From: Zoogloea dura
GTDB lineage: Bacteria; Pseudomonadota; Gammaproteobacteria; Burkholderiales; Rhodocyclaceae
Length of the DNA stretch: 64,000 bases
Direction of reading: 5' to 3'
NCBI RefSeq assembly: GCF_012927165.1
Contig: NZ_JABBGA010000001.1
Location: 124,001-188,000 of the forward strand
Shown piece after piece: positions 46,719-54,447 of the stretch. The notes under the pieces were generated by a model, which was not told the origin of the DNA, ran no database searches, and was given only the letters and a program-made list of their open reading frames with translations. Made by a program: the position numbers and the translations under genes. The stretch's first letter is position 1. Every line of letters begins with the position of its first letter.

Positions 46719-47669
46719 TCAGGCCACCTGGGCCAGGGGGTCGGCTTCGCGGAAGCGTTCGAGCAGGAAGGGTGCGGCTTCGGGGGTTTGTCCGCTGGCC
46801 AGCTGCAGGTGGCTGTCGAGGTGGCGCTCGGAAGGCGCCAGCAGGCGCCGGTAGAGCTCCTTGCACAGCACCCGCGCCTGCTGGCCCGGCCAGTCGGCGG
46901 AGAGCAGCACGTCGGGGAGCTCCGGATCGCGCAGCAGCAGGCGGCGATAGTCGTGGATCAGCAGGATGCGCAGCAGGAAGGTGCTCTCGTCGTCGATCTG
47001 GTCCTGGCCGTCGCGCAGCTGGTCCAGAACCGGCTGGTAGCGATCGACGAATTCCGAATACACCCCGGCCAGACGTTCCAGGTTCCAGGCCCCGTGCACC
47101 ATCTCGATGTCGCTGGCGGCGCCGCCTAGCTGCGCGTCGGCGGCCATCAGGGGCTTGAGCTTGCCCAGCACTTCGGCCAGGCCTTCGGCGATCAGGGCGT
47201 CGAAGGCCGCCCGCAGGTCGGCGCTGGGATGCACGAAGCAGTCACCGCCGAGGCTGCCGAAGCCCTGCCAGAACAGTGCCCGGCGCAGGGCGTCACGCTG
47301 TTTCGCGGTGAGCTCGCCGGCTGCGATGATGAGGCGCCAGCGGCGGTCCCACTGGGGCGCAGTGGAGGCATAGATGTGGCGGGAGGCTTCCTCGAAGCGG
47401 CGCTGGCCGGCAGGGGTGAGCAGGTAGTCGGTGCGCCGGCCGGATGGCTCGGAACGCAGCCACTCTTCCTTGGCCAGGCGGAACACGGAAGTACGGATCA
47501 GGCGCTCGTTGAGCTCCAGGGGTTCGAGCAGGCGGATCAGGCTGCCGAGCCAGATGCGGCTGCCCCGCGGCATGATGGCATCGCCGAAAACGGAGATGAT
47601 CAGGGAGCCGGCCTGGACACGGCCCTGCTGGCGGAACTCGTCGAGGCGTTTCTGGAGGGGCGGAAGCAC
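46719..47669 (-). CDS. paaX: Phenylacetate operon repressor PaaX
   Basis: The 316-residue protein equals E. coli PaaX in length. It has an N-terminal winged helix (SLIISVFGDAIMPRGSRIWLGSLI, then ERLIRTSVFRLAKEEWL), a central Cas2-like domain and a C-terminal domain (DYRRLLLRDPELPDVLLSADWPG). PaaX represses paa genes until phenylacetyl-CoA binds. No ATG is available in the right place; GTG at 47669 gives the family start LPPLQKRLDEF. The frame is open far upstream but that part is not PaaX-like. It is the candidate regulator for the repeated operators here. Confidence 0.92.
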   Translation of the reverse strand: MLPPLQKRLDEFRQQGRVQAGSLIISVFGDAIMPRGSRIWLGSLIRLLEPLELNERLIRTSVFRLAKEEWLRSEPSGRRTDYLLTPAGQRRFEEASRHIYASTAPQWDRRWRLIIAAGELTAKQRDALRRALFWQGFGSLGGDCFVHPSADLRAAFDALIAEGLAEVLGKLKPLMAADAQLGGAASDIEMVHGAWNLERLAGVYSEFVDRYQPVLDQLRDGQDQIDDESTFLLRILLIHDYRRLLLRDPELPDVLLSADWPGQQARVLCKELYRRLLAPSERHLDSHLQLASGQTPEAAPFLLERFREADPLAQVA

Positions 47670-47947
47670 TTGCGGGGCCGTATGGCTGCAACAAAGCCTG
47701 GATTTTAGCGGCTCGCCATCAGTTTTGGGGATTTCGGGCTTCGGCGGGAATTGGAGGCGCCATGCAGGGGCGGCTTCAGAGCGGCGCAAAATCTGCCGGT
47801 TCAAGCTTTTTGGGGGGGGGGCTGTCAGCTCTTTGTGTTCGAAGCTGGGGGGGCCTTTACTGGTTGGCTTTCCGTTCAACGCAAAACAAAGGAAGGCCGA
47901 CCAGATAAAGGCACGAGCAGGCGGCTGAAGCAGCCCCTGCACGAGCA
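47670..47947. other. Non-coding gap upstream of paaX with a G10 tract
   Basis: This 278-base gap contains no supported gene. It holds a T5-G10 homopolymer (47807-47821) and a second G7 run near 47847. No copy of the TGWTAC operator was found here, so paaX may not be controlled by it. Confidence 0.6.
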
Positions 47948-48997
47948 TTACAGCGTGAGCAGGTGCGCCGCATCCGGCACCACGGGCTGCTGCTGGGCGA
48001 AGAAGCCTTCGGTGTGGATCAGCTCTGGCCGGGCGCCCAGGGAGTTGACGGTGGCGACGCAGCTGTCCACGAAGGCTGGGCTGCCGGCGGCGAAGATGGT
48101 GTGCTTCGACACATCGGGAAAGAGCCCGGGCAATACCGCATCGACGCGTCCACCAAGATAGCCATCGCGTTCTTCGCGGGTCAGGGTGATCTTGTAGTCG
48201 AAGTTGCGATGCTTGGTCCGCCACCAGGCGAGCAGGCCGCGGCCATATACATCGGCCTCGCTGCGTGCCGAGATCAGGATGGTGACCGGCTTGCGGAAGC
48301 CGCGCCGCAGCGCCGCCTCGGTGAGGGCCAGGATGGGGGCCAGGCCGGTGCCGGCGGCGAGGCACAGGACCGGGGTGTCCACGCCGGGATCGCCGATGAA
48401 GGTGCCGTAGGCGCCGGAGACCTTGACGCTCTCGCCGATCGCCAGGCTGTCATGGACCCAGGCGCTGGTCACGCCGTCGTCGGCGCGGGCCACCTGCAGC
48501 ACCAGCTCGCCGTCAGGCCGGGGGGCGTTGGAGATGGAATAGGCGCGGGCCGGGATGCCGGCGCGGGGATTGCCGATGGTCACATACTGGCCGGGCCAGT
48601 AGCGGATCGGCTGGCCGACCGGGCGCAGGCGCAGCTCGACCACCCGCTCGGCGACGCTGCGCTTGTCTGTGACCACGAAGAGGGCGTCCTCCCGCGGCGG
48701 GAAGAGCTTGGGCCTGGCGTCCTCGGTGCCCCATTCGATGCTCAGTTCGTCGGAGATCGGCTTGGCCATGCACATCAGGCCGTAGCCCTGGCGGCGTTCG
48801 TCCTGGGACAAGGCCATGTCGAGGACCATGCCCTGGTCGAACTGGCCGGCGGTGACCTTGACCTTGCATTCGCCACAGGCGCCGGCGCGGCAGTTGTTGG
48901 GCAGCGCGTAGCCTGCCTTTTCGAGGGCCATCAGCACGGTGTCGCCATAGGCGCACTCCACCGACTTGCCCGAGGGTTGCATGATGATGCGGGCCAT
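47948..48997 (-). CDS. Ferredoxin-FAD-NAD(P)H reductase of an oxygenase system
   Basis: The 349-residue protein begins with a plant-type [2Fe-2S] domain (Cys36, Cys41, Cys44 and Cys76). An FAD-binding domain (RAYSISNAPR) and an NAD-binding domain (LAAGTGLAPILALTEAAL) follow. This N-terminal ferredoxin order is that of phenol hydroxylase- and BoxA/DmpP-like reductases, whereas PaaE has its ferredoxin domain at the C-terminus. It lies 68 bases downstream of the di-iron protein gene on the same strand and is its likely electron donor. AGGAAT precedes the ATG. Confidence 0.88.
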   Translation of the reverse strand: MARIIMQPSGKSVECAYGDTVLMALEKAGYALPNNCRAGACGECKVKVTAGQFDQGMVLDMALSQDERRQGYGLMCMAKPISDELSIEWGTEDARPKLFPPREDALFVVTDKRSVAERVVELRLRPVGQPIRYWPGQYVTIGNPRAGIPARAYSISNAPRPDGELVLQVARADDGVTSAWVHDSLAIGESVKVSGAYGTFIGDPGVDTPVLCLAAGTGLAPILALTEAALRRGFRKPVTILISARSEADVYGRGLLAWWRTKHRNFDYKITLTREERDGYLGGRVDAVLPGLFPDVSKHTIFAAGSPAFVDSCVATVNSLGARPELIHTEGFFAQQQPVVPDAAHLLTL

Positions 48998-49065
48998 TGA
49001 AGATTCCTGTCAGGTTGGGGTCGTTTTCAGCGGGGCAGGGGCGGGCACGCCCCTGCGGTCCTGCG

Positions 49066-50094
49066 TCAGAACACCGGGATGATGTCTTCCATGTCCAGGT
49101 CGCTGACTTCCTGGCCGGTGATGCCCACTTCAGGGATGGCGGGGAAGGGGATGTTGTAGCGGTCGAGGACGCCCTTCAGGTTGATCATGGCGTTCTTCCA
49201 GTTCTGCAGCTTGGCCTCGTAGGTGGGGATGCCGAAGCCGGCGCCGCGGGCCACTTCCTCGGCCTCACGCTGGTTGCCGATGAAGTCTTCCGGCAGGTCC
49301 CAGAACTCCATCGGCGGCTCGAACAGCACGGCGGACAGGAACAGGTAGCCGGCGCGGATCTGCTTGGTGACGATGGCCTTGGTTTCTTCCTTGAGGCCCG
49401 GGTAGTCGCGCTCCATCACCGCCATGCAGATCGCCATGTGGCGGCCTTCGTCGCGGCCGATGTTCTTGAAGCCTTCCTTGAACACCGCTTCGCGGGAGTT
49501 CTCGTACATCTGCTTGAAGATGGTGGCGGCGGCGATCTCGCCCATCAGGAAGGAGCTGAACAGCACGGCCAGGTCGTACTTGGGCACGGCCTGCTTGTAG
49601 CCGGTCCAATAGCGGCCGCCATTGAAATACAGCCAGCGCACGTTCTTCTGCAGGCGCTTGCCGAGCTCGGTCTTGGGCTCGTAGGTCAGCGGGTCCGGGT
49701 GGCCGAGCAGCCTGGTGATGGCCAGGCCGCACATGATTTCGTGGTTCTGTTCGTCGCGGGTCACCGAGAAGAAGCACTTGCGTACCGGATCTTCCTCGTG
49801 GACCTCATAGGTCTTGATCAGGGCTTCGGCAAACACCGGGGGGGCGGAGGCGTCGAAGACCGACAGCAGGCTCCACCAGTAGGCGATGGATTCGCGCTCT
49901 TCCCAGGTGTAGCTGTCCAGGTCCAGGGTGTCCCAGGGCAGCTTTTCAGGGTCCCAGTTCTCGCGCAGGGAGGCTTCCCAGACTTCCTGCAGCTTCTTCG
50001 TCTTGCTGTTCCAGGACAGGGGATAGATGTTGGGCTGCGGGGTTTCCGGCGGGAACTCCATCTTGTCGGCAAAACGTTCCTTGTGGCTGGCCAT
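49066..50094 (-). CDS. Ferritin-fold di-iron protein, putative oxygenase component
   Basis: The 342-residue protein looks like an R2/ferritin-fold di-iron carrier. Candidate ligands are Glu115 and His118 (RDEQNHE), Glu186 (LMGEIAAA), Glu216 and His219 (GRDEGRHM), plus an acidic residue around 81-90. It differs from PaaA, PaaC and BoxB elsewhere in sequence and I cannot assign a named family. The next gene encodes a matching reductase, so the pair looks like a two-component oxygenase. AAAGGAGG lies before the ATG. It is divergent from paaN, and the shared region contains two copies of the paa-type operator, so co-regulation with phenylacetate use is likely. The substrate is unknown. Confidence 0.8.
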   Translation of the reverse strand: MASHKERFADKMEFPPETPQPNIYPLSWNSKTKKLQEVWEASLRENWDPEKLPWDTLDLDSYTWEERESIAYWWSLLSVFDASAPPVFAEALIKTYEVHEEDPVRKCFFSVTRDEQNHEIMCGLAITRLLGHPDPLTYEPKTELGKRLQKNVRWLYFNGGRYWTGYKQAVPKYDLAVLFSSFLMGEIAAATIFKQMYENSREAVFKEGFKNIGRDEGRHMAICMAVMERDYPGLKEETKAIVTKQIRAGYLFLSAVLFEPPMEFWDLPEDFIGNQREAEEVARGAGFGIPTYEAKLQNWKNAMINLKGVLDRYNIPFPAIPEVGITGQEVSDLDMEDIIPVF

Positions 50095-50166: not shown

Positions 50167-50205
50167 TGATACAAAATAAACGTTGTGGTCAACAATTTTG
50201 TATCG
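50167..50205. promoter_or_regulatory. paa-type operator for the di-iron gene (copy 3)
   Basis: TGATACA (50167-50173) and TGTATCG (50199-50205) are inverted and 25 bases apart; inside them GATACAAAAT/ATTTTGTATC forms perfect 10-bp arms. On the minus strand TTGACC (50187-50192) lies between the arms as a -35 element. Confidence 0.72.
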
Positions 50206-50362: not shown

Positions 50363-50402
50363 TGATACCAAGCATTGACATAGATCAGATGAATTTGTAA
50401 CG
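50363..50402. promoter_or_regulatory. paa-type operator and promoter of paaN (copy 4)
   Basis: TGATACC (50363-50369) and TGTAACG (50396-50402) are 26 bases apart. TTGACA (50375-50380) lies between them as the -35, and the right arm overlaps the likely -10. The right flank TTTGTAACGTTTG differs by one base from TTTGTATCGTTTG of copy 3. TTGACATAGATCAG (50375-50388) is also an imperfect FNR-like site. Confidence 0.7.
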
Positions 50403-50440: not shown

Positions 50441-52108
50441 ATGACGCATCCCCTGTTCGAAAAGCACCGTGCAACCCTGGAAGGCGCCCTGGGTGCCATC
50501 GCTACCCGCTCCTACTGGTCGGCCTTCCCGGAAATGCCCAGTCCCAAGCTCTATGGCGAGACCGCGCCGGACGACGGCAAGCGCGCCTTCGAGGCGCACC
50601 TGGGCAAGCAGTTCGAACTGGGTCAGCCGGGGCAGAGCGGCTGGCATGGCGGCGAAGCCTCGCCCTATGGCATCGAACTGGGCGTGAGCTACCCCGTGTG
50701 TGATCCGGAAGTCCTGATCGCTGCCGGCCTCGAGGCCATGAAGGGCTGGCAGGCTGTGGGGGCCGATGGCCGCACCGGTATCTGCCTCGAGATCCTCGAC
50801 CGCCTCAACAAGCAGAGCTTCGAGCTGGCCCACTCGGTGATGATGACCACCGGTCAGGGCTGGATGATGGCCTTCCAGGCCGGCGCCCCCCACGCCCAGG
50901 ACCGCGGCCTCGAGGCCGTCGCCTATGCCTGGCGCGAGCAGAGCTTCGTGCCCGCCGAGACCGTCTGGGAGAAGCCCCAGGGCAAGAACCCGCCGCTGGT
51001 CATGAAGAAGCACTTCCAGATCGTCGGGCGCGGCATCGGCCTGGTGATCGGCTGCGGCACCTTCCCGACCTGGAACACCTATCCGGGCCTCTTCGCGGCG
51101 CTGTCCACCGGCAACGCAGTGATCGTCAAGCCCCACAGCAACGCCATCCTGCCGGCTGCCATCACCGTGCGCACCATCCGCGCCGTGCTGGCCGAGAACG
51201 GCATCGACCCCAACCTGGTCAGCCTGTGCGTCACCGACAAGCGCGCCACCACCCAGGCCCTGGCCACCCACCCGGCGGTCAAGTCGGTGGATTTCACCGG
51301 TGGCAACGTGTTCGGCCAGTGGCTGATCGACAACAGCCGCCAGGCCCAGGTGTATGCCGAGCTGGCCGGCGTGAACAACATCGTCATCGACTCCACCGAC
51401 AGCTACAAGGCGATGCTGGGCAACCTGGCCTTCACCCTGTCCCTGTACTCGGGCCAGATGTGCACCACCTCCCAGGCCCTCTTCGTGCCGGCGGGCGGCA
51501 TCCAGACCGAGGACGGTCCGAAGAGCTATGACGAGTTCTGCGCCGACTTGGCCAAGGCCATCGAGCGCTTCCTGTCCAAGCCCGAAGTGGCCCATGCCGT
51601 GCTGGGGGCGATCCAGTCCGCCGATACTGCAGAGCGCATTGAGCTGGCCAACAGTGGCACCCTGGGCAAGGTCGTGCTGGCCTCCACGGCCCTCGACAAC
51701 CCCGAGTTCCCGGCCGCCAAGGTGCGCACTCCGGTGCTGCTGGCCTGCGATGCCACCGACGAGAAGGCCTACATGGAAGAGCGCTTCGGCCCGATCAGCT
51801 TCATCGTCAAGGTGGCCGACACCGCCGCCGGCATCGCCCTGTCCGAGCGCGTGGTGAGCACTCACGGTGCCCTGACCGCCGGCGTCTATTCCACCAGGCA
51901 GGACGTCATCGACGCGATGACCGAAGCCACCTGGCGAAGCAAGGTCGCCCTGTCGATCAACCTGACCAGCGGCGTCTTCGTCAATCAGTCGGCGGCCTTC
52001 TCCGACTACCACGGCACCGGCGGCAACCCGGCGGCCAACGCGTCCTACGCCGACTCGGCCTTCGTCGCCAACCGTTTCCGCGTCATCCAGCGCCGTTACC
52101 ACGCCTGA
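50441..52108 (+). CDS. paaN: PaaN, aldehyde dehydrogenase of the phenylacetate pathway
   Basis: The 555-residue protein is an aldehyde dehydrogenase with catalytic Cys341 (SGQMCTTSQALF). It has an N-terminal extension of about 60 residues and the PaaN-specific GGEASPYGIELGVSYP region. PaaN replaces the dehydrogenase half of PaaZ, oxidising the open-chain aldehyde CoA ester to 3-oxo-5,6-dehydrosuberyl-CoA. The MaoC-type hydrolase domain of PaaZ is absent. It is the first gene of the main paa operon, with GGAGACAGACGC before the ATG. Confidence 0.92.
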   Translation: MTHPLFEKHRATLEGALGAIATRSYWSAFPEMPSPKLYGETAPDDGKRAFEAHLGKQFELGQPGQSGWHGGEASPYGIELGVSYPVCDPEVLIAAGLEAMKGWQAVGADGRTGICLEILDRLNKQSFELAHSVMMTTGQGWMMAFQAGAPHAQDRGLEAVAYAWREQSFVPAETVWEKPQGKNPPLVMKKHFQIVGRGIGLVIGCGTFPTWNTYPGLFAALSTGNAVIVKPHSNAILPAAITVRTIRAVLAENGIDPNLVSLCVTDKRATTQALATHPAVKSVDFTGGNVFGQWLIDNSRQAQVYAELAGVNNIVIDSTDSYKAMLGNLAFTLSLYSGQMCTTSQALFVPAGGIQTEDGPKSYDEFCADLAKAIERFLSKPEVAHAVLGAIQSADTAERIELANSGTLGKVVLASTALDNPEFPAAKVRTPVLLACDATDEKAYMEERFGPISFIVKVADTAAGIALSERVVSTHGALTAGVYSTRQDVIDAMTEATWRSKVALSINLTSGVFVNQSAAFSDYHGTGGNPAANASYADSAFVANRFRVIQRRYHA

Positions 52109-52117
52109 GGACCCGCC

Positions 52118-52915
52118 ATGAACTACAAGAACATCCTCTTCACGGTGGAGGCGGGCGTCGCTCGCCTGACCCTCAACCGCCCCGACAAGCTCAACAGCTT
52201 CACCGGCGAGATGCACGCCGAGCTGCGTGAGGCCCTCGACACCGTCCAGGCCGACACTTCGATCCGCGTGCTGGTCCTCACCGGCGCCGGTCGTGCCTTC
52301 TGTGCTGGCCAGGATCTGGCCGACCCGGACATGGCCCGCACGCCCAGCGGCGGCATGCCGGACATCGGCAACGTGGTCGAGAAGAACTACAAGCCGTTGG
52401 TGCTGCGCCTGCAGAACCTGCGGGTCCCCACCATCGCCGCGGTGAACGGCATTGCCGCCGGTGCGGGGGCCAGCGTGGCCCTGGCCTGCGACCTGGTGGT
52501 GGCCAGCAAGTCCGCCTCCTTCCTGCAGGCCTTCAGCAAGATCGGCCTGGTGCCCGACACCGGCGGCACCTGGTTCCTGCCCCAGCGCGTCGGCATGGCC
52601 CGCGCCATGGGTCTGGCCCTGCTGGCTGACAAGCTGCCCGCCGAGAAGGCCGCCGACTGGGGCCTGATCTGGGCCGCCTACGACGATGCCGAATTTGCCG
52701 CCAAGGTCGACGCCATGGCCACCCAGCTGGCCAGCATGCCCACCAAGGCCCTGGTGCGGACCCGCCAGGCCATGCACGCCGCGCCGGGCCACACCCTGGA
52801 GCAGCAGCTCTCCTTCGAAGGCGGCTTCATGCGCGAACTGGGCTGGAGCCCGGATTACGCCGAAGGCGTGGCGGCCTTCATGGAAAAGCGCGCGCCGAAG
52901 TTCACCGGGGAATGA
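52118..52915 (+). CDS. paaG: PaaG, ring 1,2-epoxyphenylacetyl-CoA isomerase
   Basis: The 265-residue crotonase-fold protein has an acidic residue in GLVPDTGGTWFLP, the PaaG catalytic Asp. It lacks the two Glu residues of classical hydratases (GAGASVALACD). PaaG converts the ring epoxide to oxepin-CoA and can also act as a later double-bond isomerase. Its stop overlaps the paaH start by ATGA. Confidence 0.93.
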   Translation: MNYKNILFTVEAGVARLTLNRPDKLNSFTGEMHAELREALDTVQADTSIRVLVLTGAGRAFCAGQDLADPDMARTPSGGMPDIGNVVEKNYKPLVLRLQNLRVPTIAAVNGIAAGAGASVALACDLVVASKSASFLQAFSKIGLVPDTGGTWFLPQRVGMARAMGLALLADKLPAEKAADWGLIWAAYDDAEFAAKVDAMATQLASMPTKALVRTRQAMHAAPGHTLEQQLSFEGGFMRELGWSPDYAEGVAAFMEKRAPKFTGE

Positions 52916-54447
52916 ACGTGAGCCAGGCCCTTTCTACCCAATCCGTCATCGCCGTGGTCGGCACCGGGGCCATGGGCGCCGGTATCGCCCAGGTGGCCGC
53001 TGCTGCCGGGCACGTGGTCAAGCTCCTCGACAACCGTCCGGAAGCCGCAGCCAAGGCGGTTGCCGGCATCCAGGCCCAGTTCGCCAAGCTCGCCGACAAG
53101 GGCAAGATGAGCCAGGAGGCCGCTCAGGCCGCCGGTGCCCGCCTGGTCGCCGTCGAGCAGCTCGCCGACCTGGCCGATGCCGCCCTGGTGGTCGAAGCCA
53201 TCGTCGAGAACCTCGAGGCCAAGCAGAAGCTCTACCGCGACCTGGAAGACATCGTCGCGGCCGATTGCATCTTCGGCACCAACACCTCGTCCATCTCCGT
53301 CACCGCCATCGGTGCCGCACTGAAGCGCCCGGAGCGCCTGGCCGGCCTGCACTTCTTCAACCCGGCGCCGCTGATGGCCCTGGTGGAGATCGTCTCCGGT
53401 CTGGCCACCGACAAGGCGGTCGCCGACACCCTGTTCGCCAGTGCGGCGGCCTGGGGCAAGACGCCGGTGCACACCCGCTCCACGCCGGGCTTCATCGTCA
53501 ACCGGGTGGCCCGGCCGTATTACGCCGAGGCCCTGCGCATCCTCAATGAGGGCGGCGCCGACTGCGCCACCCTCGACGCGGTGATGCGCGAGGCCGGCGG
53601 CTTCCGCATGGGGCCCTTCGAGCTGATGGACATGATCGGCCACGACGTGAACTTCGCCGTGACACGCTCGGTGTGGAACGCCTTCTTCAACGACCAGCGC
53701 TTCACCCCGTCGCTGATCCAGCAGGAGCTGGTGGATGCCGGCTTCTTCGGCCGCAAGAGCGGCCGCGGTTTCTACGACTACCGGGAAGGGGCCGAGAAGC
53801 CCCAGCCGAAGAGCGTGGTGGCCCAGACCGCACCGCTCGGCATCCTGCTCTTCGGTGAATCCGCCGCCGCGCTGGCCATCGCCGATCGTCTGCACGAGCG
53901 TGGTGTCGCTTATACCTGGGGCGATACCGGTGATGAGCGCATCGCCCAGGCCGGGGAGGCGGTGATCTACCTGACCGACGGGCGTACCGCCACCCAGCGG
54001 GCGGCGGAGAGCGGTGTGGCCAACACGGTGCTGATCGACCTGGCCCTCGACTACGCCACCGCCACGCGCATTGCCATCAGTGCCGCCCAGGGCTGCTTTG
54101 CACCGGCCATGGGGGCTGCCGTGGGCTTGCTGCAGGCGGCCGGCTTCACCGTCTCGCGCCTGGGTGATGTGCCCGGCCTGGCCGTGATGCGCACCGTTGC
54201 CATGCTCGCCAACGAAGCCGCCGACGCGGTGAACCAGGGGGTCTGCGATGCCCCGGGTGCCGACTCGGCGATGCGCCTTGGTGTCAATTACCCCCGTGGC
54301 CCGCTGGCCTGGGCCGACCTGGCCGGGCTGCCGCGGATCTGCCGGGTGCTGGCCAACCTCGCCCAGTATTACGGCGAGGACCGCTACCGGGTGTCGCCGC
54401 TGATCCAGCAGCAGGTTTTCGCAGGAAAGAAGATCCATGACCGCTGA
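52912..54447 (+). CDS. paaH: PaaH, 3-hydroxyadipyl-CoA dehydrogenase
   Basis: The 511-residue protein has an N-terminal NAD-binding Rossmann fold (VVGTGAMGAGIAQVAAAAGH) and the HAD signature LHFFNPAPLMALVEI. A tandem C-terminal helical domain makes it longer than ordinary 280-residue dehydrogenases, as in PaaH. It oxidises 3-hydroxyadipyl-CoA with NAD+. It overlaps paaG by 4 and paaI by 11 bases. Confidence 0.94.
   Translation: MNVSQALSTQSVIAVVGTGAMGAGIAQVAAAAGHVVKLLDNRPEAAAKAVAGIQAQFAKLADKGKMSQEAAQAAGARLVAVEQLADLADAALVVEAIVENLEAKQKLYRDLEDIVAADCIFGTNTSSISVTAIGAALKRPERLAGLHFFNPAPLMALVEIVSGLATDKAVADTLFASAAAWGKTPVHTRSTPGFIVNRVARPYYAEALRILNEGGADCATLDAVMREAGGFRMGPFELMDMIGHDVNFAVTRSVWNAFFNDQRFTPSLIQQELVDAGFFGRKSGRGFYDYREGAEKPQPKSVVAQTAPLGILLFGESAAALAIADRLHERGVAYTWGDTGDERIAQAGEAVIYLTDGRTATQRAAESGVANTVLIDLALDYATATRIAISAAQGCFAPAMGAAVGLLQAAGFTVSRLGDVPGLAVMRTVAMLANEAADAVNQGVCDAPGADSAMRLGVNYPRGPLAWADLAGLPRICRVLANLAQYYGEDRYRVSPLIQQQVFAGKKIHDR

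Follow-up and report, generated by a model that had tools for sequence, protein, structure and literature searches.

A putative two-gene oxygenase locus between paaX and paaN

We analyzed a 64,000-nucleotide stretch of the Zoogloea dura genome (contig NZ_JABBGA010000001.1, positions 124,001 to 188,000; hereafter the window), in which a pair of genes on the minus strand lies among the paa genes of phenylacetate catabolism. The first encodes a ferritin-fold protein, FerO, and the second a putative partner reductase, Red. Taking the catalytic assignment from the pattern in which this pair appears to replace the multicomponent enzyme PaaABCE across genomes, we put the probability that FerO-Red is a two-component phenylacetyl-CoA 1,2-epoxidase, non-orthologous to PaaABCE, at roughly 80%. 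The features of the window that bear on this proposal are as follows.

49066..50094, minus strand: FerO, 342-residue R2-like di-iron oxygenase component, proposed phenylacetyl-CoA 1,2-epoxidase
47948..48997, minus strand: Red, 349-residue reductase with domain order Fer2-FAD-NAD, proposed electron donor of FerO
50168..50204: candidate PaaX-type operator GATAC-N27-GTATC before FerO, around a TTGACC hexamer
50364..50401: candidate PaaX-type operator GATAC-N28-GTAAC (one mismatch) before paaN, around TTGACA
46719..47699, minus strand: paaX, repressor of the paa genes (TIGR02277, 279.1 bits, cut-off 264.55)
50441..52108, plus strand: paaN, ring-opening-step aldehyde dehydrogenase (TIGR02288, 912 bits)
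52118..52915, plus strand: paaG, 1,2-epoxyphenylacetyl-CoA isomerase (TIGR02280, 379.5 bits, cut-off 345.15)
52912..54447, plus strand: paaH (TIGR02279)
54943..56268, plus strand: paaK, phenylacetate-CoA ligase (TIGR02155)
56291..57496, plus strand: paaJ/pcaF thiolase (TIGR02430, NF006551)
60367..61374, plus strand: paaA, ordinary multicomponent epoxidase (TIGR02156)
61667..62449, plus strand: paaC, ordinary multicomponent epoxidase (TIGR02158)
63116..64000, plus strand: paaE, cut by the right edge of the window (named from its translation and position)

The coordinates, strand and lengths given for the pair in the initial annotation are correct, as is its placement between paaX and paaN, flanking genes that pass curated cut-offs; paaN is divergent from FerO. 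Curated cut-offs are passed in the window by PaaX, PaaN, PaaA, PaaC, the paaJ/pcaF thiolase, PaaG, PaaH and PaaK (the true start of PaaX is unsettled, the TIGR02277 match beginning at residue 32 of the 46719..47699 stretch). The pair had further been described as separate from a complete paaABCDE set; separate it is, but since paaE runs into the right edge from 63116, the set is not complete within the window. FerO is present as a single copy in the Zoogloea dura genome.

FerO is predicted to be R2-like and carries invariant candidate di-iron ligands

FerO reached no curated cut-off in profile searches of Pfam or NCBIfam. Its best Pfam matches were AurF (PF11583, 19.3 bits against a cut-off of 29.6), a weak similarity over residues 95–270, and Rubrerythrin (17 bits, cut-off 22.8); among the 15 members of an alignment referred to as A2, all matched Pfam AurF at E ≤ 0.01 (best 4.5e-6) and three matched the R2 family. 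The PaaA (TIGR02156) and PaaC (TIGR02158) models, both of which the library contains, were absent from the NCBIfam matches of FerO up to E 1, and direct comparison by BLASTP gave E 7 against the PaaA of the window and no match at E 10 against its PaaC. A BoxB model was likewise absent up to E 1, its presence in the library being unchecked. Sequence searches of the PDB returned nothing significant, whether with FerO itself (best E 1.2) or with the A2 profile (best E 0.17).

An AlphaFold model of FerO, built with a 51-sequence alignment, is a bundle of long helices (predicted local distance difference test, pLDDT, 81.8; predicted template modeling score, pTM, 0.85), as expected of the R2-like/ferritin-like superfamily. 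The highest-ranking structures in VIA-align were an ADO-like chain and the azoxy synthase VlmB, followed by R2lox, with Z scores of 17.2 for 6d9f (root-mean-square deviation, rmsd, 3.6 over 254) and 8wvr (3.5 over 250) and 16.4 for 7qbp (3.6 over 244), at 14–15% identity in all three. The 50 rows listed (Z 14.8–17.2) comprise R2lox, ADO, R2, soluble methane monooxygenase (sMMO), VlmB and PaaAC chains, a PaaAC chain scoring Z 15.0 over 204 residues. Helical bundles can reach a Z of ~13 through their common arrangement alone, and values of 15–17 are common to many ferritin-like families; we therefore used these scores as evidence of fold only. A Foldseek search of the PDB with the same model gave nothing at E ≤ 1e-3, with R2lox at E 5.5e-3. 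On the model, FerO is R2-like and related to PaaA or PaaC at superfamily level only.

The residues originally put forward as metal ligands, Glu115/His118, Glu186 and Glu216/His219 (motifs E115xxH118 and E216xxH219), are invariant both in the 51 aligned sequences, window FerO included, and in 15 sequences with identity down to 49%. None of these residues is lost on alignment, and the description of a 342-residue ferritin-fold protein with these residues holds. Of the potential carboxylates upstream, Glu90 is replaced in distant members and Asp81 is invariant; Asp81, a candidate first carboxylate ligand, lies at a plausible distance, 34 residues before Glu115, the corresponding distance in BoxB being 30 from published residue numbers. 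The BoxB ligands are Glu120, Glu150/His153, Asp211 and Glu240/His243 (PMC5489048).

Red is a constant partner with an N-terminal [2Fe-2S] domain

Red comprises an N-terminal [2Fe-2S] domain (residues 7–80) followed by FAD and NAD domains, in agreement with the reductase originally described downstream of FerO. Its best models are BenC, PRK10684 and MmoC, all far below cut-off, and its domain order is that of BenC and MmoC. PaaE-type reductases have the order FAD-NAD-Fer2. Red differs from them in carrying Fer2 at its N-terminus and reaches 113.7 bits with TIGR02160, the PaaE model, against a cut-off of 420.8, although it aligns to the cut PaaE of the window across the FAD/NAD part; on the BoxA model it scores 24 bits against 459.

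The conservation of the pair was followed at 80 FerO loci, the highest-ranking of 183 related stretches found in the genome collection (the 80 being 83–98% identical). Red immediately follows FerO at 79 of these, the remaining locus coinciding with a contig end, and the ratio of nonsynonymous to synonymous substitutions (dN/dS) against the window FerO gene is 0.035–0.14 in 8 of 8 loci compared. Because of this adjacency and these ratios, we regard the pairing as more than chance.

A candidate PaaX-type operator recurs upstream of FerO

The start regions of FerO and paaN had been said to share an operator; each holds a candidate copy, that of paaN with one mismatch. The site at 50168–50204 surrounds a TTGACC hexamer that faces FerO, and the site at 50364–50401 surrounds TTGACA ahead of paaN. 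According to a review, the PaaX site of Escherichia coli is TGATTC(N27)GAATCA (PMC9493321); the FerO-side site of Zoogloea has the same spacing (27), and its half-site differs by one letter. Within 350 nt upstream of FerO, the exact GATAC/GTATC motif with N27 or N28 occurs at 49 of the 80 loci, against a mean of 0.07 and a maximum of 1 in 200 mononucleotide shuffles, while all other spacings from 15 to 40 together yield four occurrences. Of the 54 loci in which paaN and FerO are divergent, an exact site occurs once or more at 40 and at least twice at 25. In the 5.8-Mb Zoogloea dura genome the exact pattern stands at three places (the others on contigs C5 and C35), and a backwards control at none.

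The paaN-side site taken alone is compatible with chance (18 of 100 window shuffles gave at least one such match); it is supported by its position and by the 25 divergent loci with at least two exact sites. Neither a promoter-like site before FerO (1 found, 0.8 expected) nor scanning the palindrome arm with 9-mers (14 of 100 shuffles) gave a result beyond chance. Since the spacing equals that of the E. coli site and the motif recurs at FerO loci, control by PaaX is likely on sequence grounds.

FerO-Red persists with the paa pathway in genomes that lack PaaA and PaaC

Two collections of genomes inform on the relationship between the pair and the ordinary epoxidase. The first, which was not chosen by FerO, consists of 345 other genomes of the family of the window (Rhodocyclaceae), at least 90% complete; the second consists of the 80 genomes that contain these FerO loci, many of them metagenome-assembled genomes (MAGs), with no completeness values, in which PaaA absence means no match at E ≤ 1e-20 (one genome, G847, with a PaaA match of 85 bits, below cut-off, is counted as PaaA-positive). 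All PaaN matches are those at E ≤ 1e-120, and strong PaaN denotes E ≤ 1e-255, a cut picked after the scores had been seen. Phylum-wide, FerO is found in 3 of 397 genomes, that of the window included.

The family sample contains FerO in 80 genomes (a count that includes the split or truncated genes of G006, G021, G008 and G568 and the fragments in G650 and G736), PaaA in 107 and PaaN in 156. Strong PaaN accompanies FerO in 78 of the 80, the other two being the gene fragments of G650 and G736. The 135 strong-PaaN genomes divide into 46 with both PaaA and FerO, 51 with PaaA only, 32 with FerO only and 6 with neither; the corresponding figures for all 156 PaaN genomes are 46, 52, 33 and 25. Where strong PaaN occurs without PaaA, FerO is thus present in 32 of 38 genomes. 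Viewed across all 238 PaaA-lacking genomes of the family, 32 have FerO and strong PaaN, 6 have strong PaaN only, 2 have FerO only and 198 have neither (Fisher p 3e-31, kinship ignored). PaaC was found at E ≤ 1e-3 in none of the 34 family genomes with FerO and without PaaA (G650 and G736 included; PaaB lay outside the search), and seven such genomes are single contigs at 99–100% completeness (G504, G549, G552, G555, G583, G693 and G717).

In the second set, whose record titles come from Beta- and Gammaproteobacteria plus Insolitispirillum (which we take to be an alphaproteobacterium), PaaA is absent from 24 of 50 and 11 of 30 genomes, that is, 35 of 80. Eleven of the 24 are non-MAG records: Dechloromonas hortensis, D. 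denitrificans, two Azonexus hydrophilus, Brachymonas denitrificans, Comamonadaceae CD01, Castellaniella sp. S9, C. caeni, C. defragrans, Insolitispirillum peregrinum and Alcaligenaceae CGII-56. Counting paa genes at a minimum of 50% identity within the locus stretch available, we observe paaG near the pair in all 24 (lowest identity to that of the window ~67%), paaK in 23 (at least 72% identical to that of the window), paaN in 23 with paaZ in the remaining one, and paaX in 16. PaaG of the PaaA-lacking isolates passes the equivalog cut-off in 10 of 10 (the eleven less C. caeni), so the product-side partner is kept. The 11 further PaaA-lacking loci, mostly on short MAG contigs, show paaN, paaZ or paaG in seven.

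Across the whole set at least one paa gene is in reach at 72 of the 80 FerO loci, and chance clustering of the pair with paa genes was accordingly ruled out. FerO shows greater sequence identity across these loci than PaaN or PaaG do, but this was given no weight: the loci had been chosen by FerO, which biases the comparison. The co-occurrence suggested in the initial annotation, assessed genome-wide for paaN and paaA and in the neighborhood for paaX and others, proved very strong.

Proposed role and alternatives

The step that FerO-Red would take over, as an NAD(P)H- and O2-dependent di-iron oxygenase, is the conversion of phenylacetyl-CoA to ring-1,2-epoxyphenylacetyl-CoA, usually carried out by PaaABC(D)E. 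The many genomes that retain the pair alongside further paa genes but lack PaaA and, where searched for, PaaC point to this reaction, and an epoxidase role is the simplest explanation because genomes that retain the ligase, isomerase and dehydrogenase without a known epoxidase mostly have the pair next to these genes, in many cases with an operator of the same type. The family name of PaaG identifies it as the 1,2-epoxide isomerase; the product of FerO-Red is therefore most likely that of PaaABCE, the 1,2-epoxide. In the proposed mechanism electrons taken from NAD(P)H would travel through the FAD and the [2Fe-2S] cluster of Red to the di-iron site of FerO, which once reduced would activate O2 and place oxygen on ring C1–C2; PaaG would then turn the epoxide into the oxepin, with PaaN-type enzymes acting after ring opening.

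FerO-Red thus probably replaces PaaABCE in many Proteobacteria and is probably a second isozyme in Zoogloea dura. In PaaA-lacking genomes it would be the epoxidase itself, whereas in Zoogloea dura it would serve beside the ordinary enzyme, perhaps at a different oxygen tension. The denitrifiers among the carriers, recognized by organism name, hint at a possible use at low oxygen. Broken FerO genes in two genomes of the window genus that keep PaaA (G006, split, C7:309635-310661, where a sequencing error is possible; G021, without approximately the middle third, C15:87859-88507) fit redundancy of the pair where PaaABCE is present.

An unlikely alternative, and the one that survives best, is that the substrate of FerO-Red is instead a related CoA ester (such as a hydroxy-, amino- or halo-phenylacetyl-CoA), channeled into the paa pathway, in which case PaaA-lacking genomes would use their paa genes for that compound only. 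A second substrate would explain why PaaA and FerO coexist in Zoogloea dura and 46 other genomes, and homologues in Variovorax (described below) sit in a different CoA-ligase/thiolase/hydratase cluster; against this stand the paaK homologue retained at 23 of 24 PaaA-lacking loci and the equivalog-grade PaaG of the isolates. The initial annotation had led with a hydroxylase for a related aromatic, a suggestion that we demote because PaaK and PaaG persist in PaaA-lacking genomes; its broader description of a two-component oxygenase with di-iron motifs within the paa regulon is supported, and the epoxidase option that it listed is the one favored here.

It is very improbable that the pair is an epoxidase helper, for example one that strips surplus toxic epoxide by reductive deoxygenation. 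In favor of this reading, PaaAC itself is reported to take the epoxide oxygen off again (PMC5489048), but a helper fails to explain FerO in the 32 strong-PaaN genomes without PaaA, none of which has PaaC. We give equally little credence to FerO as a hitch-hiking AurF-type N-oxygenase or other ferritin-fold oxidase of unrelated role, which has in its favor the AurF and R2 family matches within A2 (the window protein itself falling short of the AurF cut-off) and the first-ranking ADO-like and R2lox folds, but leaves the PaaX-type operator, the constant reductase pairing and the PaaA-complementary distribution unexplained.

Several observations weigh against FerO-Red as the replacement epoxidase. 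The first helix ligand of FerO is uncertain, since the pLDDT of the model around Asp81 is < 60. Among family genomes with strong PaaN and PaaA, 51 of 97 manage without FerO, and six strong-PaaN genomes carry neither; at all PaaN matches, FerO is missing from 25 of the 58 PaaA-lacking genomes and present in 33. Of the 11 further PaaA-lacking loci, three have paaX as their sole paa gene and L027 has none. In total no paa gene is in reach at 8 of the 80 FerO loci (L027, L062, L064, L067, L069, L075, L078 and L080); seven of these genomes carry PaaA elsewhere, and that of L027 is without it. At L075, L078 and L080 (Azoarcus-like, with PaaA elsewhere in the genome) the pair stands alone near frames that, from their N-termini, we take to be pilin-like and argG-like. 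No Red homologue accompanies FerO at the locus of a homologue in Nonomuraea, and for the PaaA-lacking isolates no growth tests on phenylacetate were found in the literature.

In four of the six strong-PaaN genomes with neither PaaA nor FerO (G030, G752, G762 and G763), a stretch less than 2 kb from paaN weakly matches PaaC (21–28 bits against a cut-off of 133), each with one TGA inside, and the remaining two show none; these matches possibly represent another divergent epoxidase.

FerO-Red compared with known epoxidases

FerO-Red resembles PaaABC(D)E in belonging to the same regulon and in combining a ferritin-fold oxygenase with a flavin/[2Fe-2S] reductase, and the same substrate and product are proposed for both; unlike its counterpart, FerO lies outside the PaaA and PaaC sequence families, and genomes with the pair but without PaaC exist. 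With BoxB/BoxA it shares the economy of one di-iron polypeptide and one reductase and, as proposed for FerO, epoxidation of a CoA ester, yet no BoxB model appears among the matches of FerO and Red is far from the BoxA model. R2lox and the ADO-like proteins (VlmB and "protein 60") are alike in predicted fold and differ in sequence, at the low identity given above, and in substrate. AurF, despite the weak profile similarity, differs in that the window protein falls below its cut-off and that FerO is found in a context of CoA-ester catabolism, not N-oxygenation. By its inferred role FerO-Red would be a di-iron aryl-CoA epoxidase that stands outside PaaABCE by sequence, partners and reductase type.

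No description of the pair or of an alternative phenylacetyl-CoA epoxidase was found among the papers listed by literature searches, which drew mostly on openly available journals and in which most papers were judged from their listing, and the pair goes unmentioned in the accessible portions of the literature on D. aromatica, Betaproteobacteria regulons, Aromatoleum, paa clusters and Castellaniella. BoxB and PaaAC were the only two characterized epoxidases of this kind according to the available text of a 2015 paper (PMC5489048). The GapMind paper, as far as its accessible main text goes, proposes an alternative oxepin-CoA hydrolase and nowhere uses the word epoxidase (PMC9007349). A 2026 survey, in the sections available, kept only ligases co-located with PaaABCDE, upon which PaaA and PaaC were present in all 825 proteomes, and proposes these two proteins as genomic markers of aerobic phenylacetate degradation; the same sections record paralogous clusters without core epoxidase subunits and offer no substitute (PMC13186573). 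As described there, the co-location filter would exclude PaaA-lacking FerO genomes.

We consider it reasonably likely that, beside PaaABCE and BoxBA, FerO-Red represents a third class of aromatic-CoA ring epoxidases, of separate origin within the R2-like superfamily; that among Beta-, Alpha- and Gammaproteobacteria it has taken the place of the five-gene PaaABCDE in many lineages, a large share of which are denitrifying; and that a sister branch (the Variovorax type, ~52% identical) serves another aryl-CoA ring-opening pathway. If FerO-Red does carry out the PaaABCE step, a third epoxidase would join BoxB and PaaAC, the PaaA/PaaC marker would miss whole genera, whose pathway annotation tools would score as incomplete, and di-iron epoxidation of the aromatic ring could be studied in a far simpler, two-polypeptide enzyme.

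The wider family and minor observations

Two Variovorax plasmid homologues are ~52% identical to FerO and have a 2Fe-2S protein behind them (L096:2725-20975 and L097:3574-16993). Their clusters hold an AMP-binding protein, a thiolase-type enzyme, an enoyl-CoA hydratase, a dehydratase or MaoC-type gene, an ABC transporter and an indolepyruvate ferredoxin oxidoreductase, with a gene annotated paaN in one of the two; none of paaABCDE is annotated in these stretches (the stretches only, not the whole genomes). The arrangement looks like a second, possibly undescribed, aerobic aryl-CoA ring-opening pathway with the same type of oxygenase. Its substrate perhaps derives from aromatic amino acids. Because the Variovorax homologues sit in a different cluster, the wider FerO family probably has more than one substrate.

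A Vitreoscilla homologue, 78% identical, lies near paaZ and paaABCDE. The Nonomuraea homologue mentioned above is 50% identical (L098:9959-13226); the frame downstream of it is presumably a transposase, and its flanks give no functional clue.

Between the Red gene and paaX of the window are two G runs, of ten (47812–47821) and seven (47847–47853) nucleotides, possibly a slippage-prone tract or a weakness of the assembly.

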